DNA from: a virus
Virus record (IMG/VR): IMGVR_UViG_3300027788_000097
Span: 1-22,439 of that record
Strand: one strand, 5' to 3'
DNA length: 22,439 nt
Shown piece after piece: positions 1,693-21,675 of the stretch. Each line of letters starts with the position of its first letter. The stretch's first letter is position 1. Under the pieces are notes generated by a model. It was not told where the DNA came from, searched no databases, and worked only from the letters and a program-made list of their open reading frames with translations. Both the position numbers and the translations under genes were made by a program.

Positions 1693-2694
1693 ATGCGTTG
1701 GTTAGCACTACTCACATCAATCTCAATTGCTGTTGTCGCAGCATGGTATAGTATCATTGGACTCATGGCAATATTCGCAGGTGCGACAATTGCTATCGCA
1801 ATCATGGGTGCTGTGCTCGAGGTCGGCAAGTTAGTCACTGCTGCTTGGTTGCACGGCAACTGGAAAGCAGCACCATGGTTGATGAAGTCGTACCTCACGT
1901 TTGCTGTGTTGGTACTGATGGTGATAACTTCCCTCGGCATCTTTGGGTTTCTATCCAAGGCACATCTGGAGCATACCATATCAACAGGTGGTATCAATGA
2001 TCTCCAGATAACAAACCTCGAGCGACAGATACAAAACGAGGAGCGAACGATCAGCGACTCTACAGTTGTCATAGCACAACTCGACCGAACGGTCGCCACC
2101 CTCTTGGAGTATGACAGGGTGCGTGGACCAGACGGTGCAGTAGCAACGAGGAAGGCGCAGAGCGATGAACGTGATGCTATGAATGCTGCCATCAATGACG
2201 GGTATGCGAAGATAGAGGATCTACAGGCACGACTGACACCACTACAGCAGGAGAAACTTGCCATAGAGGTAGAGGTTGGACCGCTCAAGTACATCGCAGA
2301 GATGGTGTATGGCGAGGAGAATGCGAAGGACTACTTTGACGAAGCAGTGCGCGGAGTTATCATACTGATCATTGTGTGCTTTGACCCACTGGCAGTTGTA
2401 CTGCTCCTTGCTGCGTCTATGGGATTTAGGCAGAAGAAGATGTCAAAGGTATTCTACGATGACGGCAACCACAAAATATCACCGAACAACGTGGTCAGCA
2501 TCGATGTCGAGGAACCACAAGAGTACACCGAAGAAGTTATTCTAGACATACCTGATGACGAAGATCTGGAGGACTACGAAATTTATGTTCCAGAAGATGA
2601 TGGCCTGCCTGAGATTGTCGCTGGACAATACACGAAGGATATGACCCATCGCGAAAAGATGCTGTATAATAAGAAATACGGAAGTGAAGAATGA
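1693..2694 (+). CDS. Multi-pass membrane protein with periplasmic or cytoplasmic coiled coil, 333 aa
   Basis: The largest early-region membrane protein, 333 residues. Hydrophobic segments lie at about 3-50 (probably two helices), 66-88 and 221-245. Between the third and fourth is a helical region (about 100-200) with heptad-like patterns such as NLERQIQNEERTISD and IEDLQARLTPLQQEKL, so a coiled coil is likely. The C-terminus (about 265-333) is very acidic (DIPDDEDLEDYE) and probably disordered. Marine T4-type phages, cyanophages included, often carry 'coil-containing' membrane proteins of this layout; I infer membership of that group from architecture only. The gene overlaps the next one by four bases. 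Confidence 0.8.
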   Translation: MRWLALLTSISIAVVAAWYSIIGLMAIFAGATIAIAIMGAVLEVGKLVTAAWLHGNWKAAPWLMKSYLTFAVLVLMVITSLGIFGFLSKAHLEHTISTGGINDLQITNLERQIQNEERTISDSTVVIAQLDRTVATLLEYDRVRGPDGAVATRKAQSDERDAMNAAINDGYAKIEDLQARLTPLQQEKLAIEVEVGPLKYIAEMVYGEENAKDYFDEAVRGVIILIIVCFDPLAVVLLLAASMGFRQKKMSKVFYDDGNHKISPNNVVSIDVEEPQEYTEEVILDIPDDEDLEDYEIYVPEDDGLPEIVAGQYTKDMTHREKMLYNKKYGSEE

Positions 2695-3275
2695 ATAGAT
2701 TTATTATTGAGGACAACCCAGTTGGATGCGCGCAGTCACTATGTGACTCGCATGTGATCAAGATGGTACTGGAAGAAGGTCAGATGCTTTCTACAGTACA
2801 CCGACTGGTAGATGGTGCCGAGTATACTGGCAAGACAAAGACAGGCAGGAACAAGAGGGCATGGAAGATTGTCTATGGTGTTGCCCAAAGTCAACGGGAA
2901 GATACGCTGTACAAAGCATGTCACTACAACCACCCATGCACTATCTGGTCCAGAGAGACTCGTGGCAACTACGAGTGGTCATTCAAACTCTTCGAGGCAA
3001 TCGCCAGAGAGTACACGCACCGATACGAAAAGACACACAAGACATACCAAGCACTGGCCAAGTATCTGTACTGGCCACCAGCAAACATCGACCCGAGCGC
3101 AGAGGTCACTCAATTTCCTCTTGCTATGGGTGCTGCGCCTGAGTGTATAGACATTAACAATCCAATACAATCATATCGCGACTTCTACCACACGAAGCAG
3201 CATCGTTTTAAAATGAAGTGGACTGGGCGCGAAGCACCAAGTTGGTGGCAAGGAGTTTCTTACAATGCCAATTGA
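2691..3275 (+). CDS. Conserved marine-phage protein with CDxHVxKM motif, 194 aa
   Basis: A 194-residue soluble protein. Near the N-terminus (about 13-40) it has CAQSLCDSHVIKMVLEEGQM followed by LSTVHR, then LYKACHYNHPCTIWSRET (about 73-90), then a C-terminal IQSYRDFYHTKQHRF and a Trp-rich end. This pattern (CDxHVxKM, QxLSTAHR, HPxxIW, YRxxYxxxK) matches a conserved hypothetical family I recall from cyanophages and other marine myophages. The spaced His, Asp and Glu suggest an enzyme; a remote likeness to T4-type pyrimidine-dimer glycosylase (DxH near the N-terminus) is possible but unproven. It overlaps the preceding gene by four bases and the next by eleven. Confidence 0.75.
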   Translation: MNRFIIEDNPVGCAQSLCDSHVIKMVLEEGQMLSTVHRLVDGAEYTGKTKTGRNKRAWKIVYGVAQSQREDTLYKACHYNHPCTIWSRETRGNYEWSFKLFEAIAREYTHRYEKTHKTYQALAKYLYWPPANIDPSAEVTQFPLAMGAAPECIDINNPIQSYRDFYHTKQHRFKMKWTGREAPSWWQGVSYNAN

Positions 3276-6436: not shown

Positions 6437-6753
6437 TGCCAATGTATGGTTCGATGAGACACTCGCCTTGTGGTCGTAAGATCAAGAAGAAAGCGGCAAA
6501 GGGCGAGACATTCAAGAAATACACCCCACCATCCGAGTTTGTAGCAGACGACTCTTGTGGTGGTGGGTATCGTAGAGGCGATACATCACAGTACAAGTCT
6601 GCTGACTCAGAGCAGCGTGGGGTGTGTAGTGCACCAGAGAAACATGCGTACACAGGTACACTGATCAAGGGTATCAGTTGTATGCACAAGAGCAATGCAG
6701 TTCCAGTCTTGAATAATCAAGAAATAATAGACATAGCGAGGATGCGAAGATGA
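6436..6753 (+). CDS. Conserved hypothetical protein, 105 aa
   Basis: A 105-residue basic protein from ATG 6436 (MPMYGSMRHSPCGRKIKKKA), coupled to the small membrane gene by TAATG. It has an internal CGGGYRRGD segment and a C-terminal SNAVPVLNNQEIIDIARMRR. The SNAVPV...IDIARMRR ending is a pattern I recall from hypothetical proteins of marine T4-type phages. Three of its cysteines (CG, CGGG, VCSA) might bind metal, but spacing does not fit a known zinc finger. The stop overlaps the dCMP deaminase start. Confidence 0.65.
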   Translation: MPMYGSMRHSPCGRKIKKKAAKGETFKKYTPPSEFVADDSCGGGYRRGDTSQYKSADSEQRGVCSAPEKHAYTGTLIKGISCMHKSNAVPVLNNQEIIDIARMRR

Positions 6754-7220
6754 AGATGAAGAAGGAAGTTTGCCGAGCGTATATGGATACAGCGCGAAAC
6801 TTTGCGCAATGCTCCACTGCCAAACGGTTGAAGGTTGGCGCGATCATTGTCGACCCGAGCACAGGAGCAATCGTTTCTGTTGGGTACAACGGAATGCCTG
6901 CTGGACTGTCTAACGTCTGCGAGAGTAAGGTGGACGGTGAGTCGAAGACCAAGGAGGAAGTCCTCCATGCTGAGGAGAATGCCATCTGTAAGATGGCACG
7001 AAGTAGTTCTTCCAGTGAAGGAACCTGGATGTTCGTGACACACTCTCCCTGCATCAAGTGTGCTCGCCTGATTGCAGCAAGCGGTATTGCTCGAGTGTTC
7101 TACTCCGAACGATTCAAAGGGCGAATTGGTTGCGGGTTGGAACTGCTGTCTAAATGTGGTGTCAAGACAATATATGTCAAACCATATCCAGAAGATACTA
7201 ATTGCCGTAGAACTAAATAG
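6750..7220 (+). CDS. Deoxycytidylate (dCMP) deaminase, 156 aa
   Basis: A member of the zinc-dependent cytidine/deoxycytidylate deaminase family. The catalytic signature is complete: HAEENAI at residues 73-79 (zinc-ligand His73, proton-shuttling Glu75) and PCIKC at 100-104 (zinc ligands Cys101 and Cys104). VGAIIVDP and SVGYNGMPAG (residues 29-52) are typical of the dCMP subfamily. The enzyme converts dCMP to dUMP, feeding thymidylate synthesis during phage replication, as T4 gene cd does. At 156 residues the length is normal. The start ATG 6750 overlaps the preceding stop (ATGA); ATG 6756 is a possible alternative. Confidence 0.93.
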   Translation: MKMKKEVCRAYMDTARNFAQCSTAKRLKVGAIIVDPSTGAIVSVGYNGMPAGLSNVCESKVDGESKTKEEVLHAEENAICKMARSSSSSEGTWMFVTHSPCIKCARLIAASGIARVFYSERFKGRIGCGLELLSKCGVKTIYVKPYPEDTNCRRTK

Positions 7221-7651: not shown

Positions 7652-8278
7652 ATGATTTATACTAATCAATGGGCATTCTTGCATATTCCAAAAAATGGTG
7701 GATACAACTTTAGGGAAAGAGCATTGCAGTCTCGACACATCATAGTCAGAGGTCAGCAGTATACTCCAAAATACAGAGAAGATCTACCCAATCAATTTCC
7801 CCACTGGCACCAACCTATATCATATCACATAGAGCACATCCCGCATCTTAAAAATTTGCAGTGGATATGCATAGTTCGCCACCCAGAAGATCGTTTGGCA
7901 AGTTGGTATTATTTTATAAAGACAAGGCACGAACCAATATTTAAAATGAATTTTCCATATGGCATTTCCTTTGAAGAGTTTGTTGTTGAAAATCGGATTA
8001 AAGATTTTATAGCGGATAAAGATTTTGATGCAGAGGAAGGATTGTGGAGAGTTGGAGATTTACAATCTAAGTGGTTAAATGTTCCTGATGGAGTCAACCT
8101 TGCTCATTATCGTTTGGAAGACCAACTTGGTGAGTTAGAATCTTATGTGGGGTTTAAGTTTTCTGACACAAAACATAATTATACAAATAGACCGAAAGAT
8201 TCACATTACACAGATGAAATGAAACAGATAACATACATCAATTATCAAGAGGATTACGAGAGATTTGGATATGAATAA
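7652..8278 (+). CDS. Sulfotransferase-like protein, 208 aa (inserted gene)
   Basis: A 208-residue protein with the two PAPS-binding signatures of sulfotransferases. The 5'-phosphosulfate loop is FLHIPKNGGYNF (residues 9-20; compare hxHIPKtGGtS). The 3'-phosphate motif is IVRHPEDRLASWYYF (74-88; compare RdPxxRxxSxYxy). The C-terminal YINYQEDYERFGYE matches the 'DyxxFgY' ending of the membrane/carbohydrate type (Sulfotransfer_2-like). It would move sulfate from PAPS to a sugar or other hydroxyl. The gene is visibly AT-richer than its neighbours, lacks a strong ribosome-binding site, sits between perfect direct repeats and gets its stop codon from the right repeat, all signs of recent insertion. 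Confidence 0.85.
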   Translation: MIYTNQWAFLHIPKNGGYNFRERALQSRHIIVRGQQYTPKYREDLPNQFPHWHQPISYHIEHIPHLKNLQWICIVRHPEDRLASWYYFIKTRHEPIFKMNFPYGISFEEFVVENRIKDFIADKDFDAEEGLWRVGDLQSKWLNVPDGVNLAHYRLEDQLGELESYVGFKFSDTKHNYTNRPKDSHYTDEMKQITYINYQEDYERFGYE

Positions 8279-9014
8279 AGCGAAGCAGTTTAAAGTAGAT
8301 CTTGTTGATCTCCCGAAAATAAAGAGAGTCAATATTGAAGGCAAACGCCACTATGTGCGAGCAGATGGATTGATCGCTGTCCCGTATCCATCAGTGACGA
8401 CCATAACATCCTCCTGTAAGAAGTTACAGGCAGGACTCCATGCTTGGCGGCGAAGGGTAGGTGCGGAAGAGGCGCAGCGAGTTTCTACTGCTGCTTCTAC
8501 ACGAGGCACATCTGTTCACCAACTCATCGAGGACTACTGCCAGAACGATGGCATTGTTGTCGAAGAAACTTCTCTTGGCAGGAAACTGCCAGAAGGTGTT
8601 ATGCCTGACTCATATGACATGTTCAGTCGTCTGCGCGATGTTGCAAATAAGTCCATTGATAACATCCGTGTTGTGGAAGGACTCATGTACTCTGACCATC
8701 TGCGAACAGCAGGCACGGTTGATATGGTTGCTGAGTTTGATGGCGTATTGTCTGTCATCGACTGGAAGACCTCGAACAAAAGAAAGACTCGTTCTATGAT
8801 ATATAATTACTTTAAGCAGGAAGCAGCATATGCTGTCATGTACGAAGAAATGACTGGAGTACCAGTGACACAATTAGTAACAGTCATCACTTCTTCAGAG
8901 GGAGACTCACAGGTGTTCATCGAGCACCGTGATGAATGGATTGGTGGGTTCCAAGAACTAAGGGATGCGTATGAAGAAAAGCACGGGAGTAAAGAGAATG
9001 TCTTGGAACTATAG
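8271..9014 (+). CDS. RecB-family PD-(D/E)XK nuclease, 247 aa
   Basis: A Cas4/RecB-like single-strand or exonuclease-type protein. Motifs in order: SVTTIT near residue 41; RGTSVHQLIE (79-88) with the conserved His83; VVEGLMYS (134-141) with Glu136; GTVDM (148-152) with Asp151; VIDWKTSNK (162-170) carrying the D-x-K of the catalytic site; QEAAYAVMY (183-191) with the trailing Gln-Tyr motif. The family cuts DNA ends in recombination, repair or host-DNA breakdown. ATG 8271 is preferred over TTG 8265. It starts inside the right 25-bp repeat and overlaps the end of the sulfotransferase gene. Confidence 0.88.
   Translation: MNKAKQFKVDLVDLPKIKRVNIEGKRHYVRADGLIAVPYPSVTTITSSCKKLQAGLHAWRRRVGAEEAQRVSTAASTRGTSVHQLIEDYCQNDGIVVEETSLGRKLPEGVMPDSYDMFSRLRDVANKSIDNIRVVEGLMYSDHLRTAGTVDMVAEFDGVLSVIDWKTSNKRKTRSMIYNYFKQEAAYAVMYEEMTGVPVTQLVTVITSSEGDSQVFIEHRDEWIGGFQELRDAYEEKHGSKENVLEL
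8273..8297 (+). repeat. 25-bp direct repeat, right copy (in the nuclease start)
   Basis: Identical to 7625-7649. It contains codons 2-9 of the nuclease gene (NKAKQFKV) and also supplies the TAA stop (8276-8278) of the sulfotransferase gene. The identity stops abruptly on both sides (C versus T upstream, A versus G downstream), as expected of a duplication made at an insertion junction. Confidence 0.9.
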
Positions 9015-11835: not shown

Positions 11836-12282
11836 ATGCAAATTGACTTTTGCAGTAGAACACCTCTCTATTTGGAGAGGTTTACTTTCTTTGCTGCCAA
11901 GCAGTTAGGACTGGCCAAACTCCGTGGTGAGATACACCTGTCATATTATCCGACTCTCGAGAACGACAGTTATGGATTGTGCTGGGGCGATGGCAAGGAA
12001 GCAGAAATTCATATTGCATCGAAGATGTCAGACCGCAAGGTCAGCAAGATTGATAAGATGAAGACCGTGGCGCACGAACTCGCCCACGCAAGGCAGTTTC
12101 TACGAAGAGAATTGTGCTTGGGTGGAGGAGATGATGAGTGCAACTGGCATGGCAGGTTGTTCAGGTATGACCCGCAAAACGAATCAGAAGCACCTTGGGA
12201 AGTCGAGGCAGTATCAGTAGAGCAACCCATATATGACGCATGGTTGACTTATATTTGGCAACAGCGCATGGGCATTGTATAA
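11836..12282 (+). CDS. Putative zinc metallopeptidase (HExxH), 148 aa
   Basis: A 148-residue protein whose core is KTVAHELAHARQFLRR (residues about 76-91). HELAH fits the gluzincin-type HExxH motif: two His zinc ligands and the catalytic Glu. Downstream, PWEVEAVSVEQPI (about 120-132) could supply the third Glu ligand, as in SprT-like and related small phage peptidases. No signal peptide is present, so it acts in the cytoplasm or virion. Its stop overlaps the late promoter at 12278-12285. No clear ribosome-binding site precedes ATG 11836. Confidence 0.72.
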   Translation: MQIDFCSRTPLYLERFTFFAAKQLGLAKLRGEIHLSYYPTLENDSYGLCWGDGKEAEIHIASKMSDRKVSKIDKMKTVAHELAHARQFLRRELCLGGGDDECNWHGRLFRYDPQNESEAPWEVEAVSVEQPIYDAWLTYIWQQRMGIV

Positions 12283-12286
12283 ATAG
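12278..12286 (+). promoter_or_regulatory. T4-type late promoter (TATAAATAG)
   Basis: An exact TATAAATA octamer, the core of T4-type late promoters (recognised by gp55-class sigma with sliding-clamp activation), 21 bases before ATG 12307. GAGGAG at 12295-12300 lies between predicted transcription start and ATG. It overlaps the TAA of the upstream gene. It marks the start of late expression in this window. Confidence 0.82.
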
Positions 12287-12306: not shown

Positions 12307-13587
12307 ATGCCAGCATTCAAAGAAAGAGACGACCTGAAGATCCAATTGGACAGCAAGTGCGGGTATAAGGACTTCAAAGACCAAACAAGGAAAGGATTGG
12401 TCGTTCTCATACCAAAGGGTGGCGACAGGATCGCTACTCTTGAGACCATAGCGAAGAAGTTGAAGAGTTATGGAGGAAAGTATGACCCGAACGGTGGCAG
12501 TTCATCAGTAGGCAGAACAGTCTTCACTGGTGGTTTCTTTGCCGAGTGCAAGATCAAAGGTGGTGGTGGTAGTGGCGCAGGTTCAGACCTGACCGCATTG
12601 ACTGAATCCGCTCAGTGCGTCTATAGCGCAGCACTGTATAACAACAAGAAGTATACCCACGCAGACCTCAAAGCAGTCAAGAATTTCTACATCATCGATG
12701 ACAAGATTCAGAGTGTACTGACCAAGTTGCCTGATGATTGGATCGAGTCCTCCAAAATAATTGCAGCGAAACTCAAGAAAGAATTTCCAGCAAGTGGTAA
12801 GAACTATGTACACCACCGTGGTTCTCCGTGGGTCAACAAACTCGAGCAGCACTGGAAGAAACTCAATCAGGATGCTGGCAAACCATTCTCCAACCTCAAC
12901 AAATGGTCACCTGCTGATACATGGATGATCTCGTCCAAGGGTAAGCAGATTGACATAACAAAGACAAAGACATTGGTTGAGTTGAACAACCTGCTGGCGA
13001 AGAACCTCAAGAGCAAAGATATAGTTGGAGTGTCCCTGAAGAAAGCGGTGGGCACGGTGTCGTTCAAATTGTTGAACACCTCAAAGAACCGTCCCGTGTA
13101 TGCATTCGAAAAGGCGGCGATCATTGGTAAGTCTGGGTTCTTTGGTTCGGGCGATTGCTATCTGATATTCGACGGTGGCAAGGCACAGTTCAGAAAGTTT
13201 GGATCGACATGGCAGGGTGAGTTGAAAGGTAAGAACGCCAACATGGGTAAGATGTCAGGTGGGCCAGTCAAAGCACTGCTTGATAATATAACAGGCGACA
13301 ACTTTATACCACAGCGCGATCTTTTGGAACGCGACGAAGAGACGATTGATCTATTCTACAAATGGTACAATGCCTGCAAAGATACACCGAAGATGAAGAA
13401 GTATGACTTCTATGCGGAAGTGGCGAAGAAAGATCAAAACTGGTTCGTTTCGAAGATACTATGCACCCAATTAGTTTCTGTGGTGGAGTCGATGTCAAAG
13501 AAAGACCAAGACCGTTTCACCTCGGGCATGGTCAACTACGCTGGATCTGAGTCCGAGTTGTCTGGACCGTACTGCAAGGTGTATTGA
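12307..13587 (+). CDS. Late-expressed protein with possible restriction-enzyme-like core, 426 aa
   Basis: A 426-residue, basic protein under a consensus late promoter. Recognisable pieces: a glycine-rich stretch leading to GAGSDLTALTESAQCVYSAA (about 91-109), KWSPADTWMISS (199-210), LVELNNLLAKN (223-233) and DIVGVSLKKA (238-247), then a beta-rich C-terminal half with FEKAAIIGKSGFFGSG. The PAD(T/I)W ... ELN ... VGVSLKK order recalls conserved marine-myophage proteins and, distantly, the D...xSxK site of PD-(D/E)XK enzymes; activity is unproven. Late timing and no membrane segment suggest a virion or packaged protein. It ends near the structured element at 13631-13750. Confidence 0.7.
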   Translation: MPAFKERDDLKIQLDSKCGYKDFKDQTRKGLVVLIPKGGDRIATLETIAKKLKSYGGKYDPNGGSSSVGRTVFTGGFFAECKIKGGGGSGAGSDLTALTESAQCVYSAALYNNKKYTHADLKAVKNFYIIDDKIQSVLTKLPDDWIESSKIIAAKLKKEFPASGKNYVHHRGSPWVNKLEQHWKKLNQDAGKPFSNLNKWSPADTWMISSKGKQIDITKTKTLVELNNLLAKNLKSKDIVGVSLKKAVGTVSFKLLNTSKNRPVYAFEKAAIIGKSGFFGSGDCYLIFDGGKAQFRKFGSTWQGELKGKNANMGKMSGGPVKALLDNITGDNFIPQRDLLERDEETIDLFYKWYNACKDTPKMKKYDFYAEVAKKDQNWFVSKILCTQLVSVVESMSKKDQDRFTSGMVNYAGSESELSGPYCKVY

Positions 13588-14226: not shown

Positions 14227-15435
14227 ATGGCAGAAAAGAATACTCACATGACCCACATCGAGGACAAAGTCCTCTATGGTGGAATCGACGGGACTCGACA
14301 AGCAATCGCTGGTCTGGTCTCATTGCGCAACATGCTTCAGGGGAATCACAAGGGTGATGTCTCAGTGAAGTGGGATGGCGCACCAGCAATATTCGCTGGG
14401 ACAGATCCATCGGATGGCAAGTTCTTTGTCGCCAAGAAAGGAATCTTCAACAAGAATCCAAAAGTTTATAAGACTCAAGCAGACGTTGATGCAGACACCT
14501 CGGGTGACCTCAACAAGAAGATGAATGCTGCCCTAGAGTTGCTGCCTGCACTCGGCATTAAGGGTGTCATACAAGGCGACTTCATGTTCAGTGCCGATGA
14601 CGTTGAGACAAAGAAGATTGACGGGCAGAGGTATACTACGTTCCACCCGAACACACTTGTGTACGCAATTCCATATAAGGATCCAGGAGCAAAGTCAGTG
14701 CGCGATGCGCAGATCGGTATCGTGTGGCACACCACATACAAAGGAGACTCATTCGAGAATATGTCTGCGTCATACGGAGTCGACGTCAAGAGGTTGAAGA
14801 AATCAAGAAAGGTTTGGTCACAGGATGCTATGCTGCGTGATTTTAGCGACACAGCGACTATGACTTCTGCTAACACCAAGAAGGTTGACGCATACCTCAG
14901 TGACGCAGGGAAGATCTTTAAAAGAATATCATCTGGCGTATTGCGAGAGTTGGAGGCGCACCCTGAGTTGCCCCAATTGATCGAGCAGTTCAACAACACC
15001 TATGTCCGAAAGGGCGAGATGCTGCCCGATTCCAAGATACATGTCCTCCACCTACAGAGTTGGTTGAATACTAAGTATACCAAAGAGATCGACAAGAGGA
15101 AATCAGAAAAAGGCAAGAAGGTACAGCAGAAGAAGTTGTCCTTGTTGTTGAGGTTCTTTTCGAAGAGCAATACCGCTGCGCTAATTCAGATGTTCGAATT
15201 ACAAAAGAAATTAGTATTAGCGAAATTGATCCTTATAAATAGAATGAGTAAGTTGGCAGGAATCAGCGCGTTTGTACGCACGAAGAAAGGGTACAAAGTA
15301 ACTGGTCAGGAAGGGTTTGTGGTTATAGACAAACTCGGGGGCAGTGCTGTTAAACTAGTCAACCGTATGGAATTTTCGTACAATAATTTCTCTCCAGATA
15401 TCCTCAAAGGTTGGGAGAATAACAACAGGAAGTAG
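14227..15435 (+). CDS. Putative covalent nucleotidyltransferase with ligase-like motifs, 402 aa
   Basis: A 402-residue protein. KWDGAPAIF (residues 48-56) resembles motif I KxDG of ATP-dependent DNA/RNA ligases and capping enzymes, where the Lys takes the AMP. IQGDFMFS (115-122) and TLVYAIP (143-149) could be motifs III/IIIa, EGFVV (362-366) motif IV and VKLVNR (375-380) motif V. Order and sequence fit the fold, but about 210 residues separate III from IV, far more than in a minimal ligase; the insert includes a basic helical part (KYTKEIDKRKSEKGKKVQQ). I recall homologs in marine phages filed as a domain of unknown function with KWDGAPA. Real ligase activity needs testing. ATG 14227 follows the previous TAG directly. 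Confidence 0.6.
   Translation: MAEKNTHMTHIEDKVLYGGIDGTRQAIAGLVSLRNMLQGNHKGDVSVKWDGAPAIFAGTDPSDGKFFVAKKGIFNKNPKVYKTQADVDADTSGDLNKKMNAALELLPALGIKGVIQGDFMFSADDVETKKIDGQRYTTFHPNTLVYAIPYKDPGAKSVRDAQIGIVWHTTYKGDSFENMSASYGVDVKRLKKSRKVWSQDAMLRDFSDTATMTSANTKKVDAYLSDAGKIFKRISSGVLRELEAHPELPQLIEQFNNTYVRKGEMLPDSKIHVLHLQSWLNTKYTKEIDKRKSEKGKKVQQKKLSLLLRFFSKSNTAALIQMFELQKKLVLAKLILINRMSKLAGISAFVRTKKGYKVTGQEGFVVIDKLGGSAVKLVNRMEFSYNNFSPDILKGWENNNRK
15234..15242 (+). promoter_or_regulatory. T4-type late promoter inside the ligase-like gene (TATAAATAG)
   Basis: An exact TATAAATAG lies within the coding sequence, about 200 bases before the gene at 15437. The following GAAT matches the late box at 21267, which argues against chance. 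It would start transcription near 15247 and give late expression of the three virion-type genes downstream separately from the ligase-like gene. An internal ATG at 15245 lies at the predicted transcript end. Confidence 0.6.
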
Positions 15436-15436
15436 C

Positions 15437-15823
15437 ATGGCGAAGACACTGAAGGAGTTTGTAGACAGCGGAGAGGTCGAACAGACCACCGAAGCACTCA
15501 CACATGCCCAAAGAATCCAAGCATCTATTCGAATGAAGAAGATGAAGAACCGAATTAAGATTGGGCGTGAACGTGCTGCTCGCCGAACTCCGACCATGGA
15601 CGTGGTCAAGAAACGCGCCATGCGTAAAGCAAGACTGACTGTACTGAAGAAATTGACCAAAGGGCAGAGTAAATCAGATTTGGGTTTCTCTCGCCGTGCC
15701 GAAATTGAAAAAAGACTGACAAAGAAGACGGCACTTATACAAAGGTTGGCGAAGAAGTTGATTCCTGTAGTGAGAAAACAAGATAGAGACCGCAAGAACG
15801 CAAGCAAGACCGAGGAAGACTAG
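15437..15823 (+). CDS. Highly basic virion-type protein, 128 aa
   Basis: A 128-residue protein that is strongly basic after residue 25 (IRMKKMKNRIKIGRERAARR, then KKRAMRKARLTVLKKLTKGQ and SKSDLGFSRRAEIEKRL). The N-terminus MAKTLKEFVDSGEVEQTTEA recalls the T4 internal-protein leader (M.xxxEF) but lacks the L/I-x-E protease site. A long arginine/lysine-rich helix next to other head-targeted proteins suggests a DNA-condensing internal head protein. I recall very similar basic proteins as conserved hypotheticals in marine T4-type phages. AGGAAG before ATG 15437 is the ribosome-binding site. Confidence 0.75.
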   Translation: MAKTLKEFVDSGEVEQTTEALTHAQRIQASIRMKKMKNRIKIGRERAARRTPTMDVVKKRAMRKARLTVLKKLTKGQSKSDLGFSRRAEIEKRLTKKTALIQRLAKKLIPVVRKQDRDRKNASKTEED

Positions 15824-15828
15824 TAGAA

Positions 15829-16842
15829 ATGCCAATATCATTTAAAGACTACCTTGTTGAAGAGGATAAGGTGGCATTCTTCACCTTTGGTAGAATGAAT
15901 CCACCAACCATTGGACATGAGAAAGTCCTAGACAAACTCGCTAAGAATGCAGGAAAGAATCAATACTTCATATTCTTGTCGCAGTCCCAAGATGAAAAGA
16001 AGAATCCACTCACATACACCAATAAGGTGAAGCACGTGCGCAAAATGTTTCCGCGCCATGCCCGCAGAGTGATGATAAATAAGAAGGTGCGCACTCCTTT
16101 TGATGCAGCATCGTATTTGTACGATCAGGGGTTTCGAAGCGTTTCTATGGTCGTAGGTTCTGATCGTGTCCGTGAATTCAAAACACTATTAGATAAATAC
16201 AACGGCGTCAAGGGCAACCACGGTTTCTTCAACTTCCAGTCAATAAATATCATTTCTGCTGGTGAGAGAGATCCAGACTCTGATGGGATTGATGGTATGT
16301 CTGCTTCGAAGATGAGAGAGTTTGCAGCTGCAAATAACTTTGCTAATTTCTCTCAGGGTTTGGGAAGTCTGAACACCAAAGACGCCAAGAAAGTCTATGC
16401 AGATGTGCGCGCTGGAATGGGCATTAAAGAGACGAGCGTATTCTCCCGACACGTTGAATTGGAAACGGTCTCAGAAAGAAGAGAGAAGTTTGTTAGGGGC
16501 GAACTGTTTGAGTTGGGGGACCAAGTGATTGTCAAAGAGTCTGACGAAGTGGGAACCATAACACATCTAGGTACCAACTATGTTATCGTCCAGATGAGCG
16601 AAGAAAGTTTTGTGCGTAAGTGGTTAGAGTCTGTCGAGAAGATCGAAGAGGTTTCTCCACCATCAAGCGCAGAATTTATTCCCTCACCAACAGGAGGTAG
16701 ACGGAGTGCTGTTGTCGACGACCAGATACGCAAACCATTCAAACTACTCGACAAGAAAGAAACCAGCGGATTGATAAAGGCATTGAAAAACCGAAAAGTG
16801 TTCACTGCCAATAAACTAAAAGGAGCAGATAATGCCAGATAA
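15829..16842 (+). CDS. Cytidylyltransferase-fold (NMNAT-like) protein with head-targeting N-terminus, 337 aa
   Basis: A 337-residue protein. The first 11 residues MPISFKDYLVE look like the T4 capsid-targeting peptide (compare MKTYQEFIAEA), with LVE fitting the gp21 protease (L/I)xE cleavage rule. Then FFTFGRMNPPTIGHEKVL (17-34) carries the (T/H)xGH motif of nucleotidylyltransferases, VVGSD (108-112) and GMSASKMREF (156-165) the matching SxSxxR region. NMNAT/PPAT enzymes join AMP or CMP to a phosphate-bearing partner such as NMN. Residues about 224-272 (LFELGDQVIVKESDEVGTIT) form a small SH3/KOW-like domain. A late-expressed, packaged enzyme is inferred. It overlaps the tail protein gene by 11 bases. 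Confidence 0.78.
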   Translation: MPISFKDYLVEEDKVAFFTFGRMNPPTIGHEKVLDKLAKNAGKNQYFIFLSQSQDEKKNPLTYTNKVKHVRKMFPRHARRVMINKKVRTPFDAASYLYDQGFRSVSMVVGSDRVREFKTLLDKYNGVKGNHGFFNFQSINIISAGERDPDSDGIDGMSASKMREFAAANNFANFSQGLGSLNTKDAKKVYADVRAGMGIKETSVFSRHVELETVSERREKFVRGELFELGDQVIVKESDEVGTITHLGTNYVIVQMSEESFVRKWLESVEKIEEVSPPSSAEFIPSPTGGRRSAVVDDQIRKPFKLLDKKETSGLIKALKNRKVFTANKLKGADNAR

Positions 16843-18919
16843 ACAAACCTTGAATGTGGGAACTGTTGCCAACGATGGCACAGGAGACACTCTGCGCGCA
16901 GCAGCAGGAAAAATTAACTCCAACATGGATAACCTTTGGACAGCAGTTTATGATGGAACTGTTTTTTCTCGCACCGACAGGGTTAAACATATCATACCAT
17001 TTCCGACGACACTACTTTTTGGCGTCATCGCTATGGGGAACACGTCGGACATCAACACATTTATGTTAACGTTGGATCTCACCTTGGCCGAAGACCATGT
17101 TGTAGATCTCGGCGGACACACTTATGGTTGTGACGAGACAATAAACTTGACCAATCTCGATGGGATTCGATTTACTAATGGAGTGTTTACTCGAGGAAAC
17201 GGCAATCCTAACCTGGTTGGTTCTCCCCTCACATATTGGCCAGTGTTCGAGTTGACGAACTGCACGAGATGCTCCTTCGACAACATGGAGATGAAAGACG
17301 ATAGAGTTGAAGTAGCGGTGAACTTTTTCGATGGACTTTCTTATGATGGACACTTCAGTGTTACACCTAATCCGACGATTCGCGCAGATTTCGAAGTGCC
17401 ACTGGACCCTGTGAAATTTGCTCGTAATGGAGTACCAACAGCATTTATGAAGTTGACAAACAGCAACGATATCACTTTAGATAACTGCAGGATGTTAGAT
17501 ATTGTCTATGGTGTTATTGCAGCTGGGTCCGAGAAACAAAGAAGAATCGACATAAGAAACTGTACCTTCTCTACTTCGTCGGGAATAACCGATGGGAAAA
17601 TGGGTGATGCAGTTTATGGAAATGGTTTGCTTGACGATTGTACATTTACAAACAATTCGGTCAAAAACGCAATGAGCGCAGTAAATACAGGAAGTGTTGG
17701 TAATAGATGGAATGTTTCAAACAATCTTATCGAGAATACAATAAACTCCGCCGTATTTTTGAGGGGAAAGGGTCATGTTGTAACAGGCAATACTATCACA
17801 TATTCTGGGAGGGACGGTATCGAGGTACAGACAGATCCCACCCCTTGGTTCGGGAAAGTGGGAATTGACTCCGACGAAGGATCTTCTAGCATAACAGGAA
17901 ACGTGGTCAAATTTGCTGGGTATTATCAAGAGGGAGGGGGGATGTGCATACGTTCTTATGGGGCAAATAATATAGTTAGTACGAACTTCTGTGAGATCGA
18001 CAGTGCTGCTAACATGAATGTGACTTCGCTCGCCGCTGGTGTTTCTATCGCTGGAAGAAACACTATTGTTTCCTCAAATAGTATTGTTGGTCCATATGCC
18101 TTCCCCAATACGAAAGCATCAATTGCGGGTAATAGTTATTATGGAATACGTCTTGCCTCAAGTGAAACCTGGAGGGGAAACAAGTGTATAATCGGTTCCA
18201 ATAATATTAGGAACGTAACATCGGGAATCACTGCTATAGGAGCGAGTGCAATAAACGAAGATCACACCCTATACAGTACACAAATATCAAACAACAGTAT
18301 TTCTGGTTCTAAGTGGGGGATTTACATAGTCCCAGAGGATAAAACCGGAGTATTTTCAGATTTCATGATCAAAGACAACATTATTGATAGTTGTGAAAGC
18401 ACGGGTATGTGGTTTAAGGGCAGCGGTCCAATTATTGTGGAAGGAAACTCTTTCAACAATATGAGCGACAAGATTATTAGGGTTGGTGGGGTAAATGATG
18501 TAGGGACTTTCAGGAATAATGTATGGGACGGGGAGACGCTGGACCCGACGACGGACCCGATATTAGTGGAAGTTTTAGCAACAGAATCGATCATAACAGA
18601 GTTAGGAAACTCATGGAATCCCAAAGAGTCCACGATTGTCAATGTAAGTACCCAAACAGCAGACTATAGTGCCAATGTTATTACAGACAGCACCATACTT
18701 GTCGATGCTACAATCGCAGCAGTAACGATTACTCTCCCGACTGCTGTTGGATATACTGGTAAGAACTTTCGAATCAAGAAAGTTGATAACACTGCCAACG
18801 CAGTCATTATAGACGCCGACGGTTCGGAAACTATTGATGGGGCGTTCCAAGTCACTATCAGTACACAATATGGTGTATCTGACATTGTTAGCGATGGAAC
18901 AAACTGGCATATTTGTTAA
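16832..18919 (+). CDS. Beta-helix tail protein (tailspike-like), 695 aa
   Basis: A 695-residue protein. The N-terminal segment (about 7-36) has LNVGTVANDGTGDTLRAA, a pattern shared by marine-phage tail proteins that anchor to the virion. Residues about 80-600 contain many Asn-, Ser- and Gly-rich repeats such as ITGNVVKF, CIIGSNNIRN, TQISNNSISG and FMIKDNIIDS, which form rungs of a right-handed parallel beta-helix (pectate-lyase-like). The C-terminal domain (about 615-695, ITLPTAVGYTGKNFRIKKVD) is a tail-fibre module I recall from phage proteins. It probably binds or degrades a surface polysaccharide; catalytic residues cannot be assigned by eye. AAAAGGAG precedes the start; no internal stop is present. 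Confidence 0.85.
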   Translation: MPDKQTLNVGTVANDGTGDTLRAAAGKINSNMDNLWTAVYDGTVFSRTDRVKHIIPFPTTLLFGVIAMGNTSDINTFMLTLDLTLAEDHVVDLGGHTYGCDETINLTNLDGIRFTNGVFTRGNGNPNLVGSPLTYWPVFELTNCTRCSFDNMEMKDDRVEVAVNFFDGLSYDGHFSVTPNPTIRADFEVPLDPVKFARNGVPTAFMKLTNSNDITLDNCRMLDIVYGVIAAGSEKQRRIDIRNCTFSTSSGITDGKMGDAVYGNGLLDDCTFTNNSVKNAMSAVNTGSVGNRWNVSNNLIENTINSAVFLRGKGHVVTGNTITYSGRDGIEVQTDPTPWFGKVGIDSDEGSSSITGNVVKFAGYYQEGGGMCIRSYGANNIVSTNFCEIDSAANMNVTSLAAGVSIAGRNTIVSSNSIVGPYAFPNTKASIAGNSYYGIRLASSETWRGNKCIIGSNNIRNVTSGITAIGASAINEDHTLYSTQISNNSISGSKWGIYIVPEDKTGVFSDFMIKDNIIDSCESTGMWFKGSGPIIVEGNSFNNMSDKIIRVGGVNDVGTFRNNVWDGETLDPTTDPILVEVLATESIITELGNSWNPKESTIVNVSTQTADYSANVITDSTILVDATIAAVTITLPTAVGYTGKNFRIKKVDNTANAVIIDADGSETIDGAFQVTISTQYGVSDIVSDGTNWHIC

Positions 18920-21279: not shown

Positions 21280-21675
21280 ATGAAAGGCGAGAAGAATAAA
21301 AAAACAAGGAAGTGTGATGGTTATGACCCTTCTACACACGAGTGGGGCACGGATGCCTCCGTTCTTCGAGCAAAGAATTTGACACCAAACGAGAAGACAG
21401 GCATGAAGTCGTTTAAAGAGTTCACTGAGGCGACATATCAGGGTAAAAAAGTTACACTAAACAGTCCTAGTGCTGGTGACGTGAAGAAGTCTAAAGTATT
21501 TGTAAAGGATGGAGACAAGGTCAAGAAAGTTAATTTCGGTGACCCCAATATGACCATCAAGAAAGACCAGAAAGGAAACAAGGCATCCTATTGTGCAAGG
21601 TCTGCTGGCATTGAAGGCGGTGGCAAGGATAAGACGAAAGCAAACTATTGGTCGCGCAAAGCGTGGAACTGTTAG
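21280..21675 (+). CDS. Small basic virion-type protein, 131 aa
   Basis: A 131-residue Lys-rich protein. An upstream part (CDGYDPSTHEWGTDASVLRA, about 12-31) is followed by MKSFKEFTEATYQGKKVTL (about 42-60), where MKSFKEFTEA resembles the T4 internal-protein leader MKTYQEFIAEA, and then KKSKVFVKDGDKVKKVNFGD, MTIKKDQKGNKASYCARSAG and a C-terminal KANYWSRKAWNC. The GDPNMTIKK ... FRARH/YCARS ... KAxYWSRKAW pattern is one I recall from marine-phage proteins. The start is either ATG 21280 (upstream segment looks coding) or ATG 21403 (leader-like N-terminus). A packaged or head-associated role is inferred. Confidence 0.68.
   Translation: MKGEKNKKTRKCDGYDPSTHEWGTDASVLRAKNLTPNEKTGMKSFKEFTEATYQGKKVTLNSPSAGDVKKSKVFVKDGDKVKKVNFGDPNMTIKKDQKGNKASYCARSAGIEGGGKDKTKANYWSRKAWNC

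Follow-up and report, generated by a model that had tools for sequence, protein, structure and literature searches.

Related systems

Covalent nucleotidyltransferases, such as T4 Rnl1 and Rnl2, trypanosome REL1, Trl1 and the DNA ligases, carry their motifs in the order KxDG...EG(F/Y)V...K. In bacterial Pnkp/Rnl RNA repair, a ligase core with an insertion domain (PMC4411300) is accompanied by kinase and phosphatase partners, and phage Pol-beta transferases, kinases and phosphoesterases cooperate with RNA ligases (PMC7824862). T4 gp24 and internal proteins are made with propeptides of 10-20 residues, termed capsid-targeting sequences, which are cut by gp21 (PMC5694885). Cyanophage virions contain a cytidylyltransferase/NMNAT (T4-GC190), and two virion papers already propose that a virion NMNAT enters the host (PMC9602691, PMC10665884). 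Finally, phage NAD salvage involves NadV, NadM and NadR, NadV having been found in every phage with NadM (PMC9503650).

The window analysed here, i.e. the whole stretch of 22,439 nucleotides of the viral record IMGVR_UViG_3300027788_000097, contains three ORFs of 402, 128 and 337 aa (Table 1), and the late cluster reported in a preliminary description is real. The 402-aa protein belongs to Pfam DUF6267 (profile search, E 3e-100; also phrog_455), a phage-only family without assigned function. It has the motif order and predicted core of the covalent nucleotidyltransferases, but no detectable sequence relation to them; in addition it has a helical insert of about 130 residues, no OB domain, and a distribution limited to phages. 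The Pnkp/Rnl likeness, namely an insertion in the ligase core and kinase and phosphatase partners, comes from the literature only; no Pnkp ligase is among the best 50 structural matches, an absence that carries no weight against the likeness. The 337-aa protein is homologous to T4-GC190, with the same type of leader; its gene is shorter, separate and next to a separate basic-protein gene. With NAD salvage it shares the HIGH-superfamily nucleotidyltransferase fold. With T4 internal proteins and Alt, the cluster has in common a short leader of the same framework ending in E, and a gp21-type protease is found in relatives of the window. Of the earlier proposal of an injected modification system similar in concept to Alt, ADP-ribosylation of the Alt type was rejected: Alt belongs to the ADP-ribosyltransferases, whose fold neither cluster enzyme has, and only the idea of packaging is common to both. 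Virion NMNAT-like proteins were known already; no report of the DUF6267 ligase fold or of the leader signature was found, and none of the papers searched names DUF6267.

Table 1. Annotated parts of the three-gene cluster and of its upstream neighbourhood in the window
Feature	Position	Strand	Basis or remark
TATAAATA	12278..12285	+	precedes upstream gene 12307-13587
phrog_1462 protein	12307..13587	+	PHROG profile match
DUF6267 (phrog_455) gene, 402 aa, leaderless here	14227..15435	+	predicted covalent nucleotidyltransferase, ligase fold
Motif I KWDG, residues 48-51; Lys48 predicted nucleotide acceptor	14368..14379	+	invariant in 252/252 relatives covering the motif
DUF6267 helical insert, model residues 214-343, preceding motif IV	14866..15255	+	AlphaFold2 model
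TATAAATA, T4-type late promoter sequence	15234..15241	+	inside DUF6267 gene, 195 bp before basic-protein gene
Motif IV EGFVV, residues 362-366; E362 and G363 invariant	15310..15324	+	alignment of relatives
Motif V VKLVNR, residues 375-380; K376 and R380 invariant	15349..15366	+	alignment of relatives
Basic protein, 128 aa, 38 K+R, pI 11.2	15437..15823	+	phrog_23027 domain
337-aa HIGH-superfamily nucleotidylyltransferase, predicted NMNAT/NadD/PPAT fold	15829..16842	+	profile matches, model
Capsid-targeting-like leader MPISFKDYLVE of the 337-aa protein, LxE cleavage-type site	15829..15861	+	
TIGH, (H/T)xGH motif of the 337-aa protein, residues 27-30	15907..15918	+	
SASKMR, second ATP-binding motif of the 337-aa protein, residues 158-163	16300..16317	+	
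337-aa protein: predicted fold, residues 13-201; small beta domain, 232-271; C-terminal tail of low confidence			model

The three genes form a widespread unit

Pairwise fusions in other phages show that the DUF6267, basic and NMNAT-like genes form one unit: DUF6267 is fused to the NMNAT-like protein in a 591-aa protein of S-PM2 and in the phrog_455 profile, and the NMNAT-like protein to the basic one in DLP_6 and in loci L216, L220 and L236. The order DUF6267 - basic - NMNAT-like is preserved in C48C1 and Melnitz, and the NMNAT-like gene lies downstream of DUF6267 in 55 of the 72 dereplicated loci whose sequence extends far enough. By tblastn, DUF6267 was found in 465 phage records, mainly Synechococcus and Prochlorococcus myoviruses, but also in Melnitz, HTVC008M, DLP_6 and C48C1, and the NMNAT-like protein in 517. 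Three scans of viral contigs added up to 240 loci. Over 460 records of isolated phages carry DUF6267 and its partner, as do hundreds of contigs of marine viruses; T4 itself has no DUF6267. We conclude that the module is a real, widespread enzyme unit, in which a new predicted ligase-fold family is paired with an enzyme of the HIGH fold whose leader is of the packaging type. Occurrence in cellular genomes was also considered: among 84,980 species, with one genome apiece, DUF6267 was seen in just 15 contigs, nearly all labelled metagenome-assembled, and these are most likely phage contigs.

The protein between the two enzymes had been described as very basic with a similar leader. It is very basic, whereas its leader in the window resembles the pattern weakly; full leaders are present on basic proteins of relatives (MPLRFKQFISE in L079, MLSFKQFVSE in C48C1).

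The sequence TATAAATA occurs four times in the window, always on the + strand (12278, 15234, 18931 and 21267, where 0.65 is expected by chance), and three of the four sites end at most 40 bp before an ORF start, as expected of T4-type late promoters. Among related NMNAT-like genes, 25 of 98 have it within 200 bp upstream, versus 2.0 expected. These late-promoter sequences, the very basic partner and, in cyanophages, nearby genes with head-protein annotations would fit both proteins acting in head assembly or DNA condensation, their enzyme folds being relics. Full conservation of the motif residues across very diverse phages is unexpected for relic enzymes, and we hold this explanation to be very improbable.

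Predicted ligase fold of DUF6267

The motifs KWDG, EGFVV and VKLVNR had been noticed in ligase order in the 402-aa protein, and they are indeed there. Superfamily motifs I (KxDG), IV (EG) and V (K) are present in this order and invariant across 252-253 aligned relatives, with KIDG in the DUF6267 protein of S-CREM2 and KMDG in that of S-SCSM1. Conservation of Lys48, on which the initial proposal hinged, is total (252/252 relatives covering the site), and among about 250 relatives K48, D50, G51, Q116, D118, E362, G363, K376 and R380 are invariant where aligned.

An AlphaFold2 model built on an alignment (A1) of 38 diverse DUF6267 proteins reached a pLDDT of 88.7 and a pTM of 0.85. Compared to the PDB with VIA-align, ligases made up 48 of the best 50 rows, headed by REL1 (1xdn, Z 7.8), the Naegleria RNA ligase (6vt1, Z 7.7) and T4 Rnl1 (2c5u, Z 7.2); Trl1, Rnl2 and DNA ligases ranked likewise high, and unrelated rows started at Z 5.9. 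With a best Z of 7.8, below 8, this is strong support rather than proof, and would be unconvincing if taken alone. Foldseek alone gave weak matches (E > 0.1), though its top ranks were DNA ligases. Taken with the order of the motifs and with motif residues conserved throughout, the VIA Z scores make it likely that DUF6267 has the covalent nucleotidyltransferase (ligase) fold. Together with the model of the 337-aa protein (see below), this agrees with the nucleotidyltransferase folds proposed earlier for both enzymes. Peculiarities of the DUF6267 model are the insert before motif IV and the lack of the OB domain that DNA ligases have at their C-terminal end, motif V being followed by no more than a single helix and 14 residues.

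Sequence comparisons were silent on this relation: no known RNA or DNA ligase Pfam family was matched, DUF6267 itself being the only profile with a family-wide match, a PDB sequence search with the DUF6267 profile found no relative, and hhalign gave no link to T4 Rnl2 and gp30.

Ligase families PF01068, PF09414, PF09511 and PF01653 had no match in 14 of 16 phage genomes with DUF6267, while the T4 control scored in three of the four. Several of the 16 genomes plainly encode T4-like replication genes, yet 14 lack the four families. With its predicted ligase fold and invariant active site, DUF6267 is a candidate for the ligase seemingly missing from many T4-like cyanophages. It might simply be the missing ligase, for DNA or RNA, that DUF6267 phages use in replication and repair within the cell, without being packaged, next to an NMNAT-like gene with a role of its own. 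Its place after UvsX and the gp41 helicase in cyanophages and HTVC008M points the same way, as do the cyanophage DUF6267 proteins, leaderless and absent from the listed virion data. We consider this somewhat unlikely: most DUF6267 proteins outside cyanophages bear a packaging-type leader, S-PM2 has the protein fused to the virion-associated NMNAT-like enzyme, and G003 and DLP_6 keep DUF6267 alongside an ordinary DNA ligase.

The NMNAT-like protein and NAD metabolism

The (T/H)xGH and SASKMR motifs and the leader with LVE, ending at residue 11, were recovered in the 337-aa protein as first described. It matches CTP_transf_like (E 3.7e-5) and the PHROG cytidyltransferase family (E about 1e-65), and its model matches NadD (8aih, E 4.6e-6), PPAT (3otw, Z 14.2) and NadM (2r5w, Z 13.2). 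With this modelled fold and both (H/T)xGH and SxSxxR-type motifs, it is clearly predicted to be a HIGH-superfamily nucleotidylyltransferase. PPAT, NadD and NMNAT tie in the structural comparison. The PHROG family named nicotinamide-nucleotide adenylyltransferase matched weakly (E 0.02), and a PDB sequence search with the NMNAT-like profile gave merely a weak MJ0951-type motif similarity.

A NAD link, one option raised at first, stays putative, NMNAT and PPAT being inseparable by structure and NadV (PF04095) not being found in 15 of 16 DUF6267 phages, with DLP_6 as sole exception. No NadR-type AAA_28 kinase scored over the cut-off in the nine genomes tested, and NadR/NadM salvage was discarded as a candidate.

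The same data bear on whether the NMNAT-like protein is carried in the virion to make NAD+, acting against NAD depletion or shifting host metabolism, with DUF6267 supportive or unrelated. The predicted NMNAT/NadD fold and the repeated virion detection speak for it, and the same proposal stands in PMC9602691 and PMC10665884. Given that PPAT scores equal NMNAT, that NadV was not found in 15 of 16 DUF6267 phages whereas PMC9503650 finds it in every phage with NadM, that the AAA_28 kinase is below cut-off, and that the nicotinamide-specific PHROG family matches so weakly, we regard it as unlikely.

Leaders and virion data

Using the pattern M.{1,3}F..[FYH][IL].E, strict leaders were found in set 1 on 65 of 80 DUF6267 and 65 of 73 NMNAT-like proteins, and in set 3 on 62 of 80 DUF6267 proteins; in the HTVC008M set, neither protein had one. 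Since start codons in these sets were picked with the pattern in mind, the fair tests are a genome-wide ORF count and the neighbouring families. In two near-complete relatives, with one rule for all ORFs, the leader was present on 4 of 203 and 3 of 201, all within the cluster (probability of such clustering by chance about 1e-4 and 5e-3, respectively). By family, 90 of 131 DUF6267 proteins had it, against 0/61 neighbouring helicases and 0/46 RecA proteins. The T4 leaders of Alt (MELITELFDE), gp24 (MAKINELLRE) and IPI (MKTFKEF) share its framework, and a Peptidase_S77 protease (gp21-type) is present in 5 of 5 long relatives, the window itself being a 22-kb fragment.

NMNAT-like homologs, reported as cytidylyltransferase, were detected in purified virions of S-SM1 (PMC3037559), S-CREM2 (PMC10665884), S-SCSM1 (PMC9602691) and S-SZBM1 (PMC9146016), and they start with MKKFSAFLNE, MKNFSSFLTE, MKSFLQFLKE and MRFRQFIIE, respectively. 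Cleavage is not mentioned in the text consulted, and for S-CREM2 the authors caution that detection could be carry-over (PMC10665884). As for DUF6267, the proteins of S-SZBM1 (neighbour of the NMNAT-like gene) and S-CREM2 (58914-59762) are leaderless and absent from the virion tables, and S-SCSM1_257 is leaderless and carries no virion-protein flag. Leader and virion presence thus agree in this small sample (S-SZBM1, S-SCSM1, S-CREM2 and S-SM1). The 402-aa protein of the window has no leader either: it starts with MAEKNTHM, and a TAG stop directly precedes the ATG.

Since this protein and three cyanophage DUF6267 proteins are leaderless, the latter being unreported in virions, good support for packaging is confined to the NMNAT-like protein, and the DUF6267 of the window has none. 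The injected pair initially envisaged is retained in part. Overall, the leader suggests that the NMNAT-like protein, and in most close relatives both enzymes, is tagged for the head and delivered with the viral DNA. It predicts head-carried proteins of marine phages, and would make injected effectors searchable.

A virion-reported NMNAT of S-CBWM1 was rejected as a family member, the NMNAT-like profile finding no match in that genome. Long NMNAT-like proteins contain five internal copies of the leader motif versus 0.6 expected, but three are in one protein. The NMNAT-like polyprotein L212:8693-11245 has three tandem leader-like FxxFLxE(S/E) copies at residues about 368-398, a layout suggestive of cleavage into several parts as the head matures.

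Proposed role and neighbouring genes

We tentatively favour, at somewhat less than an even chance, an adenylyl-transfer module made up of three genes in marine T4-like phages, combining end joining and cofactor making early in infection; the plain intracellular ligase and then the NAD+ maker follow closely. The leader (M..F..[FYH][IL].E) would direct the NMNAT-like protein into the prohead, a gp21-type protease would cut it after LxE, and the enzyme would leave the head together with the DNA, aided by the basic protein in travelling with it. DUF6267 would take AMP from ATP onto Lys48 and pass it on to the 5' end of a nucleic acid to seal breaks; the kinase, HAD-phosphatase and Pol-beta enzymes of related clusters would heal the ends. 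The NMNAT-like enzyme would supply the newly infected cell with an adenylylated cofactor such as NAD. Against this module stand the lack of a sequence-level ligase link, the Foldseek and VIA scores (E > 0.1, Z < 8), the leaderless DUF6267 proteins of the window and of cyanophages, the HTVC008M group without strict leader, and the chance that virion detection reflects carry-over.

The HAD phosphatase and the kinase, moreover, are found in only a minority of loci. In some relatives a zeta-toxin/AAA_33 kinase lies between the DUF6267 and NMNAT-like genes, or HAD phosphatases that bear the leader and are related to polynucleotide kinase neighbour the cluster. A Pol-beta-type nucleotidyltransferase of the same cluster (L267:6513-7226, S-CREM2 gp156) is on the S-CREM2 virion list. 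Some relatives have a phrog_1462 protein as the neighbour upstream of DUF6267, sometimes with a leader. In a broader version of the adenylyl-transfer module, which we find somewhat unlikely, a widespread class of marine T4-like phages would deliver a nucleic-acid repair and cofactor kit along with its DNA. The kit would consist of DUF6267 as a new family of RNA/DNA ligase, the adenylyltransferase, and interchangeable partners (kinase, HAD phosphatase, Pol-beta transferase, HD hydrolase, nuclease-like proteins), of which a number share one capsid-targeting leader.

Known defence families were considered and set aside, PADLOC giving marginal matches only. Among the neighbours in relatives, an HD_4 (SpoT-like) hydrolase at L211:12168-12722 bears the capsid-targeting-like leader too, and is possibly a packaged (p)ppGpp-type hydrolase. 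Directly upstream of DUF6267, L063:4910-5971, L226 and others encode leader-bearing proteins with PKTDxxIGxxRxSLK, which resembles a PD-(D/E)XK nuclease core; the scanned relatives had no Pfam match. Elsewhere in the window, genes resembling those for a pyrimidine dimer glycosylase (2691-3275), a dCMP deaminase (6750-7220) and a PD-(D/E)XK nuclease (8265-9014) were seen. The gene of a tail protein (16832-18919), in which an N-terminal domain of T4 gp9/10 is combined with a right-handed beta helix, directly follows the cluster and overlaps its last codons, and the phrog_7595 protein at 21280-21675 corresponds to the module found at the end of the NMNAT-like polyprotein (1027 aa) of L216.
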